Part shown: piece after piece, positions 43,592 to 45,982 of the stretch
How positions within the stretch are numbered: the first letter of the stretch is position 1
How the letters are laid out: every line of letters starts with the position of its first letter
DNA from: Nitrosophilus alvini
GTDB lineage: Bacteria; Campylobacterota; Campylobacteria; Campylobacterales; Nitratiruptoraceae
NCBI RefSeq assembly: GCF_015100395.1
Contig: NZ_AP022847.1
Coordinates: 994,501 to 1,058,500, forward strand
Direction: 5' to 3'
DNA: 64,000 nucleotides
Made by a program: the position numbers and the translations under genes
Notes under the pieces: generated by a model
What the model saw: only the letters and a program-made list of their open reading frames with translations
Database searches by the model: none
Told to the model about the DNA's origin: nothing

Positions 43592-45982
43592 ATGGAGAGA
43601 AATATTTACAATGAAGCCCAAAAACTCAAAAGAGAGCTTAAAAAAAGAATTTTTGGACAAAACGAAGCCATAGACGAAGTTGTAGATACTTTGACCAGAG
43701 TCTCTCTGGTCCCGACATCTGAAAACTTCAAAGCTCTTTTCACATTTTTAGGCCCCCATAACAGCGGTAAAGTGTATCTTGCAAAACTTCTTGCCGAACT
43801 ATCCGATATGTTTGAGGCTGTAAAAGTCTTCGATATGGCCCAGTTTACAGACCCGAGTGATGAAAAAAAACTTATAGGAGCAAACGGTTCATTAACAGCT
43901 TTTGTAAAAAAACATCCACGCTCTGTAATCGTTTTCGATGATATAGAAAAAGCCGAAAACATGATACAGCTCTCAATACTTGATTATATAAAAACTCCCA
44001 AAGAGGAGAGCGGAGTCGATTTCTCTTCATGCGTTATCATTTTTTCAACATCTTTAGGCAGTCAATATATCAAAAAAAGGGATTTTTTAAGTTTCTACAA
44101 AAAAGAAAAATTCAAAGCACAGGCTAAAATCATAGAGGCTATATCTCACGAAAAAAAAGTTATATACGATATCGTAGAAAATGCAATCGATCCAAAACTA
44201 CTCTCGGTTATGGCACAGCATCAGATAGTTCTTTTCAAAACGCTCTCTTTCGATTCCATCGTAAAAATAGCAAGCCGATCTCTCAAAAACGCTATATCGA
44301 TATTTGAAAAGAAGAGCAGTATCAATGTAGAGTTTGAAGATTTCAAAAATTTCATAAAACTGGCAGTACTCTCATTTGCGCCTTATATAAATGCAAGAAG
44401 GATAAACAAGAAACTCCCTGACCTGATAATAGAAACAATAGGCCAAAGCATATCAAAAACTGATTTTATACCTGAAAAAATTGTTTTTAGAGCTGAAAAA
44501 AATGCACTGAATTTTCTCGAACAAATAAAGGATAAAAAAGAGTTTCTAGAAGAGCTCTTTAGAAAAAACGAAACGGTCGAGCTTTCATGGGAAATAAAAA
44601 AAGAGAAAAACTCTATAATAATCAGCATAAAAAATGTTGCAATAAAAAAGCTTCCTTTGTATATCTCGCCCAAAGAAAAACCGGCAGTAAGATATTCTAC
44701 TACATCCTTCAAAGAGATAGCCGGTCAATCCAACGTCAAAAAGACACTCAAACAGATCATTCACGTTCTAAGACATCCGGACTTGGTAAAAAAATTTGAT
44801 ATAGATATGCCTAAAGGTATGCTTTTGTACGGTCCAAAAGGAGTTGGCAAAACACTGCTTGCACAGGGCTTTGCAAAAGAGTCAGGACTACCTTATATAT
44901 ATCTATCCGGAAGTGATCTTTTTGACCAGAATCTTATCAGACTCGCTTACCAGAAGGCCAGAGAGTACGCCCCGAGTATCGTTTTTCTTGATGAAATCGA
45001 TACAAAAGGAATAATAGAAGGCATATATACAACAATGCCTGTAGAAGAGCTTATAAATGAAATCGACTCTATAGCTTCGTCGCCGGAAGAGTTTGTATTT
45101 ACCGTAGCTACAGCAAACTCCAAAGATGAAATCAACAAAAACCTTCTAGCTCCGGGCAGAATCGATATATTTGTAGAAGTGCCCGAACTGGACATGGAAG
45201 CAAGAAGATTTTTTATACGGAAAATTCTCGAAAAGCCCAACGACGGAAAAATAGATATCGAAAAAGTTGTCAGATATATTTCTGGAATGAGCGGATATGA
45301 GCTGCAAAGAATAGGCAAAGAAGCAGCTCTGTACGTTATAAGAAACAATTTGGAATATATCACCGAAGAGATTCTCATCGAACAGATCAACAATATTAAA
45401 TATGGCTACAAATTGGAGAAAAAAAGAATAAGAAATCTTGAGAAGGATCTTAAAAAAACCGCATATCATGAAGCAGGACACGCAGTGCTATCCTATCTGC
45501 TACTTCCGGATATCAAAATAGAACAGGTAACCATAGCTCCTCGTTCGGAATCATTGGGCTTTGTATCATACAGCAATCAGGAATATATCAGCAACATCTC
45601 CAAGGATGAGATTTTGGGAGACATATGCGTTCTACTTGCGGGAAGAATATCAAAGATAAAAAAATTTGGTCCAGAAGGTATTGATACAGGAGCTTCGGCT
45701 GATCTGGAACAGGCTACATGGGAGGTTTACAATGCCATCGCAACACTTGGAATGGATGATGAGATAGGATATGTGCATACAGATACATTAAACCAGAACG
45801 TTAGTAAAAACTTTTTCAGAGAAAAAATAGAAGAACGAATTCAAAGATGGATATCCGAAGCTACCGCAAAAACAAAGATGTTAGTCGACAAATACTGGGA
45901 TAAAATAGAAAGAGTTGCGGAAGAACTTATAAAAAAAGAGATTATAGACGGGGCTGAACTCAAAAAAATAATGGAGGGTTGA
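43592..45982 (+). CDS. Soluble double-AAA+ FtsH-like M41 protease with degenerate Clp-type module
   Basis: A 796-residue protein. Residues 1-250 form a ClpA/B D2-like AAA module: GPHNSGKV (54-61, Walker A with Val for Ser/Thr), VIVFDDIEK (112-120, Walker B), but the NR-D arginine finger is absent (PKLLSVMAQHQIVLF). Residues 370-600 are FtsH-type AAA: GPKGVGKT (414-421), IVFLDEID (463-470), LLAPGRID with the second FtsH arginine missing. Residues 615-796 are an M41 zinc protease: HEAGH (626-630) and GASADLEQAT (third ligand Asp). Compared with relatives, both pore loops are deleted: GYVG after LIGA, and FVG after SGSD. No membrane helix is seen. Function unknown. Confidence 0.85.
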   Translation: MERNIYNEAQKLKRELKKRIFGQNEAIDEVVDTLTRVSLVPTSENFKALFTFLGPHNSGKVYLAKLLAELSDMFEAVKVFDMAQFTDPSDEKKLIGANGSLTAFVKKHPRSVIVFDDIEKAENMIQLSILDYIKTPKEESGVDFSSCVIIFSTSLGSQYIKKRDFLSFYKKEKFKAQAKIIEAISHEKKVIYDIVENAIDPKLLSVMAQHQIVLFKTLSFDSIVKIASRSLKNAISIFEKKSSINVEFEDFKNFIKLAVLSFAPYINARRINKKLPDLIIETIGQSISKTDFIPEKIVFRAEKNALNFLEQIKDKKEFLEELFRKNETVELSWEIKKEKNSIIISIKNVAIKKLPLYISPKEKPAVRYSTTSFKEIAGQSNVKKTLKQIIHVLRHPDLVKKFDIDMPKGMLLYGPKGVGKTLLAQGFAKESGLPYIYLSGSDLFDQNLIRLAYQKAREYAPSIVFLDEIDTKGIIEGIYTTMPVEELINEIDSIASSPEEFVFTVATANSKDEINKNLLAPGRIDIFVEVPELDMEARRFFIRKILEKPNDGKIDIEKVVRYISGMSGYELQRIGKEAALYVIRNNLEYITEEILIEQINNIKYGYKLEKKRIRNLEKDLKKTAYHEAGHAVLSYLLLPDIKIEQVTIAPRSESLGFVSYSNQEYISNISKDEILGDICVLLAGRISKIKKFGPEGIDTGASADLEQATWEVYNAIATLGMDDEIGYVHTDTLNQNVSKNFFREKIEERIQRWISEATAKTKMLVDKYWDKIERVAEELIKKEIIDGAELKKIMEG

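Follow-up and report, generated by a model that had tools for sequence, protein, structure and literature searches.

The window, a 64,000 nucleotide stretch of Nitrosophilus alvini DNA, contains a gene for a predicted hybrid of Clp and FtsH proteins. The gene and its domains are as follows.

43592..45982, +, gene for the window protein, a predicted 796-residue Clp-FtsH hybrid zinc protease (open reading frame and Pfam domains; 53 homologues)
43592..44656, +, module 1, ClpB/ClpC-D2-like AAA ring with small domain, residues 1-355 (AAA_2 match; structure match to ClpB/ClpC D2, Z 23)
44687..45421, +, module 2, FtsH-type AAA ring, residues ~366-610 (Pfam AAA, NCBIfam FtsH model and structure match)
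45434..45979, +, M41 zinc peptidase domain (117.4 bits, cut-off 29.9)

An earlier interpretation, made from the DNA letters and their translations (the sequence-only reading), described a soluble double AAA protein ending in an M41 peptidase. The Pfam matches agree. A ClpB-D2-like AAA_2 domain (residues 49-178, 59.7 bits, cut-off 27) is followed by an FtsH-like AAA domain (residues 410-531, 95.6 bits) and Peptidase_M41 (residues 618-793). Among NCBIfam models, those for ClpB and ClpA match the N-terminal third of the protein. The FtsH model TIGR01241 aligns to residues 369-790 with 245.3 bits, below its cut-off of 600. Peak 19-residue hydropathy was 1.15, compared with at least 2.04 in FtsH paralogues. 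Hence, the window protein has no transmembrane helix and, unlike FtsH, is soluble as had been read. The individual motif readings all held in the protein sequence.

AlphaFold2 models, made from eight sequences, covered the full protein and module 2 with M41. The AAA parts were confident; confidence was low for much of M41 and the region preceding it. The module 1 model matched ClpB/ClpC D2 over 289 residues. The model of module 2 with M41, much of the latter being low-confidence, matched FtsH, Yme1 and AFG3L2 (Z 22-23, 383-409 residues, rmsd 5.7-6.7).

Relatives came from whole-genome searches and from scanning genome contigs with a peptide pattern. For phyla outside Campylobacterota and Desulfobacterota the scope was one peptide-pattern scan, sensitive to close relatives. 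The sequence-only reading had suggested searching Campylobacterota for the same module order. Homologues were found there (39/397 sampled genomes), in Desulfobacterota (7/395 sampled genomes) and at MAG loci. The alignment combined 21 FtsH proteins with 53 non-redundant members of the family, of which 45 have both AAA modules and 8 are solo proteins. The solo proteins have ~450 residues and no module 1; one has a longer open frame. No members were found on viral contigs, where two distant M41 proteins (25 % identity) were the only matches. The one inspected (L120 7419-9443) is an AAA-M41 protein with HEAGH, and was ruled out as a member by its TFVG loop and hydrophobic N terminus. Plasmid matches were to ClpK and FtsH, separately, and were also rejected.

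A maximum-likelihood tree was built from module 2 and M41, with the pore columns left out. The family separated from FtsH (100/100), and 45 rows, including the window protein, formed a derived clade (100/100). The basal lineages are those that keep motor motifs; the branching order among them is poorly supported. Because the root lies on the long FtsH outgroup branch, motor loss rather than gain is the likely direction of change, not a proven one.

The FtsH-type ring and the zinc peptidase

In the usual view, AAA+ proteases work by threading, and aromatic pore loops are indispensable to them. The relevant features of module 2 and M41 are listed here.

44831..44854, +, Walker A of module 2 (GPKGVGKT), intact (K420 in 53/53 homologues)
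44918..44926, +, conserved stump L443-F444-D445 (F/Y at 444 in 43/45 derived members, L in 8/8 basal members)
44927..44932, +, site of the missing FtsH pore loop 1 (FVGVGA), between Q446 and N447
44990..44995, +, Walker B of module 2 (D467-E468), intact in the window protein, although only 19/53 homologues have E468
45002..45055, +, pore-loop-2 region of module 2, shorter than in FtsH (13-19 residues across the family against 25-26)
45158..45169, +, arginine-finger pair, with R523 retained and I526 in place of the second
45467..45481, +, HEAGH zinc motif, residues 626-630 (His/Glu/His complete in 51/53)
45701..45703, +, third zinc ligand Asp704 (D in 52/52 rows reaching the position)

The six FVGVGA columns were empty in 53/53 family members and filled in 21/21 FtsH proteins from the same search. 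At this site, the AlphaFold2 model has a short helix (440-444) followed by a helix (446-458), and no loop. The sequence-only reading had noted the missing loop, and had conceded that local degeneration would undermine its interpretation. The absence is family-wide and thus not local, so a non-threading reading survives for module 2; for module 1, where basal members keep their loops, the argument fails in part. The second FtsH arginine finger, also described as lost, was Arg in 0/53 homologues and 21/21 FtsH proteins. A further change had gone unremarked: the pore-loop-2 region is 6-13 residues shorter than that of FtsH in 53/53 members.

The ATPase residues of module 2 are unevenly kept. The catalytic Walker B Glu was retained in 19/53 members and the sensor-1 Asn in 9/53. 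The window protein itself retains Walker A, Walker B, the sensor-1 Asn and one arginine finger. Hence, this protein may still perform ATP-driven work. The derived clade has also gained an aromatic residue at the stump of the deleted loop, and Phe444 could act as a short substitute pore aromatic. We consider it unlikely that ATP hydrolysis in module 2 still drives substrate unfolding by the window protein, with Phe444 or other channel residues providing the grip. The stump aromatic and the intact ATPase residues would suit such a mechanism. However, 34/53 homologues have lost the catalytic Glu, among them most of the subclades in which Phe444 is shared, and pore loop 2 is shortened too.

The M41 site, which had been read as complete, is intact in the window protein. 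Across the alignment the first zinc His, the Glu and the second His were conserved in 51, 53 and 53 of 53 members. The first His is missing in two basal members, L007 and L056; thus, proteolysis is not universal in the family. For close derived pairs, dN/dS was ~0.02-0.13 over the whole protein, mostly 2-3 times looser in module 1 than in module 2 and M41, and 0.01-0.06 for M41 in most pairs. This is purifying selection, which argues against a pseudogene, and we dismissed that possibility.

These data bear on whether the protein is a pseudo-enzyme, acting as a scaffold or regulator in which protease activity has no importance, as for plant FtsHi proteins. Decay of the motor motifs, loss of the zinc His in L007 and L056, and patchy occurrence (7/22 genomes of the window's taxonomic family) fit such a role. 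Even so, it appears rather improbable, given a complete set of zinc residues in 51/53 members and the low dN/dS of M41. The sequence-only reading had offered either a non-threading protease or a regulator or scaffold. The former stands for module 2; the latter is weakened because the zinc site is kept and ATPase residues erode. Judged from the alignment, ring-motor parts have eroded stepwise across the family with the cutting site retained.

The Clp-type ring in basal and derived members

Four sites in module 1 distinguish the window protein.

43751..43774, +, Walker A of module 1, GPHNSGKV, with Val in place of Thr (alignment)
43871..43891, +, module 1 shortened pore-loop site LIGANGS (2 residues here, 10 in 8/8 basal homologues)
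43931..43942, +, Walker B of module 1, VFDD, in which Glu is replaced (alignment)
44207..44209, +, module 1 arginine-finger position, Val206 (R in 7/8 basal members, 0/37 derived rows with module 1)

The motifs read GPHNSGKV, FDDIEKA, LIGA-N-GSLTAF and LLSVMAQ, the last facing FLNRLDD in D2 of ClpB from the same genome. The GYVG loop, the Walker A Ser/Thr and the arginine finger are gone from the window protein, as had been claimed; the replacement of Walker B by DD is an additional point. The claim of loop loss did not extend to the basal homologues. There, the loop between LIG and GxLT is full-length in all eight. Conversely, 27 derived members have 2 or 4 residues, and this short loop (2-4 residues) spans three subclades within the derived clade. 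In the 10 Desulfobacterota members the loop has 9-11 residues. Basal loops read GYKN, KYSK, GYSD, VYKG, GWSG, GWKG or PYSG, with an aromatic residue in 8/8. One derived subclade, the 8 solo proteins, is missing module 1 altogether. By eye, basal members seemed to start with a Clp_N domain; Pfam gave no support even at an E-value of 5, and the idea was rejected.

Since all eight basal homologues have a full-length loop, and seven the Clp finger, they may still thread substrates via the Clp module. The finger is lost throughout the derived clade, and the loop is shortened in three of its subclades. Hence, on comparison of these sequences, a Clp-type motor probably served the protease first and later decayed.

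Genomic neighbourhood and DUF4062 genes

In the window's taxonomic family, the protease gene is flanked by genes for a 264-residue protein (no Pfam match; adaptor-like by eye) and nicotinate phosphoribosyltransferase. Genomes G006 and G012 have empty sites, with these two neighbours directly side by side. The protease gene is thus a dispensable, yet stably placed, chromosomal gene. Disrupted copies also occur. The hybrid protease gene of G178 (L076 2880-5307) lies in two overlapping frames, owing to a frameshift. In G140 (L126 11636-12070) the Clp-FtsH frame, preceded by the same upstream gene, is only 144 residues long and looks as though an insertion had cut it short. Empty sites and the broken and truncated copies would be expected of a gene decaying toward loss, in which the missing loops have no functional meaning. 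That explanation is highly improbable and largely refuted already: reading frames have stayed open in almost every copy despite wide divergence, dN/dS is far below 1, and the exact six-residue deletion is common to 53 sequences of two phyla.

Basal members sit elsewhere. The copies in L114, L115, L116 and L118, which represent three basal lineages, directly adjoin or overlap genes that combine DUF4062 with a STAND-like NTPase region (pairs at L114 9074-16788, L116 8961-14901 and L118 9246-19501). DUF4062 was found in 23/394 Campylobacterota genomes, compared with 4/6 sampled genomes having a basal copy, and there it was always adjacent or overlapping. Adjacency by chance in three bacterial families is unlikely, and we infer a functional link between the protease and DUF4062. 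A 2026 report describes DUF4062 as a TIR-like NADase in an antiphage system (PMC13174449) and mentions no protease. A basal Clp-FtsH protease may thus control, or be controlled by, its neighbouring DUF4062 STAND protein, the window's clade being a domesticated offshoot. This account is partly independent of the others, and we hold it tentatively. Besides the silence of that report on any protease, it has to contend with the absence of DUF4062 from the window's genome and from those of basal L049, L056, L007 and L018.

Other genes accompany these loci. The L114 locus has, in addition, another DUF4062 gene and one encoding a TIR domain. The cassettes repeatedly encode a protein of 600-800 residues whose N terminus is hydrophobic (L125 6048-16598; L114 6741-9077, with a TrkA_N domain; L126 9354-11639). 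In G360 (L125) the order is DUF4062, membrane protein, DUF4062, with no protease; hence, the protease seems optional. In two deltaproteobacterial MAGs (L001 127-6188 and L006 2277-8424) the gene follows, on the same strand, genes for a LonC-like protease and an S30EA ribosome-hibernation-type protein. The basal Sulfurovum copy lacking the zinc His (L007 1481-8514) follows a PP2C-kinase fusion gene, near two trigger-factor-like genes.

Proposed mode of action and comparison with known systems

Our best explanation, to which we assign about an even chance, is that the window protein is a non-threading zinc protease, with its rings acting as assembly platform and gate. It draws on the family-wide absence of FVGVGA, and on zinc residues kept while module 2 motor residues erode. 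Decay of the module 1 finger and loop in the derived clade, the tree, dN/dS and the structural matches also point this way. In this scheme, a Clp-type ring would have replaced the FtsH membrane anchor, and the FtsH ring would have lost its own gripping loops. The ancestral Clp ring may have threaded substrates through an FtsH ring that was open and delivered them to the M41 chamber. It would later have turned into a passive platform for hexamerisation and docking in the window's clade. Module 2, with Walker motifs intact in the window protein, may be an ATP-controlled gate or conformational switch. Chains that are flexible, unfolded or delivered by an adaptor would then enter without being pulled and be cut by the M41 domain.

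Hexamer formation is assumed from homology. When FtsH homologues were cut from their membrane part, an artificial hexameric coil kept assembly and activity (PMC7226402). By analogy, module 1 could take the hexamerising role of that coil. The 8 solo proteins indicate that such a platform is not essential for all members. A fuller history, in which the lineage swapped motors and then abandoned threading under a selected, active and possibly switch-gated zinc site, starting from a defence cassette, is possible although we would not favour it.

None of the closest systems, namely FtsH, Clp D2 modules and FtsH ternary conflict systems, shares this layout. Like FtsH (TIGR01241; bacterial and organellar M41 AAA+ proteases), the window protein has AAA then M41, HEXXH with Asp, the first arginine finger and the overall fold. 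Unlike FtsH, it is without the transmembrane helix, the FVGVGA loop, part of pore loop 2 and the second arginine finger, and scores 245 bits against 600. The fold and small domain of module 1 resemble D2 of ClpA, ClpB and ClpC (Z 23), with Walker A, Walker B and the arginine finger retained in basal members. However, there is no D1 ring, the window protein is without the GYVG loop and finger and has altered Walker A and B, and module 1 is fused to a peptidase rather than paired with ClpP. Tandem AAA modules, the first degenerate and the second FtsH-type, also occur in the FtsH ternary conflict systems of Kaur et al. (2020, PMC7159879). In those systems both modules belong to the FtsH type and work together with MoxR and vWA genes, whereas here module 1 is Clp-D2-type and M41 is fused. 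Our Pfam scan of ten neighbouring genes found no MoxR or vWA gene.

Two more distant parallels can be drawn. Cdc48/p97 is a double-ring AAA+ protein in which one ring (Cdc48 D1) is without aromatic loops (PMC7226402). Its D2 keeps them and it has no peptidase; the window protein has loops in neither ring. Plant FtsHi pseudo-proteases are a divergent FtsH branch with altered function (PMC8197885). In contrast to the window protein, which kept its zinc site and lost motor parts, they are membrane proteins that lost the zinc site. Literature searches, which covered few subscription papers, returned no description matching this architecture.

The family is a natural experiment on whether threading is dispensable for an AAA+ protease. 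Its loops were cleanly removed under selection and intermediates are alive in other species, so that ring roles besides pulling (assembly, gating, allosteric activation) become testable. The link of the basal form to DUF4062 STAND genes suggests a protease-regulated defence module, undescribed in the literature searched. The window's own genome also encodes a second membrane FtsH-like paralogue (L097 1047-2720; C1 ~868547-870220), which keeps a YVG pore loop and has no HEXXH. This degeneration is the reverse of that seen in the window protein; most related genomes give matches to similar proteins.
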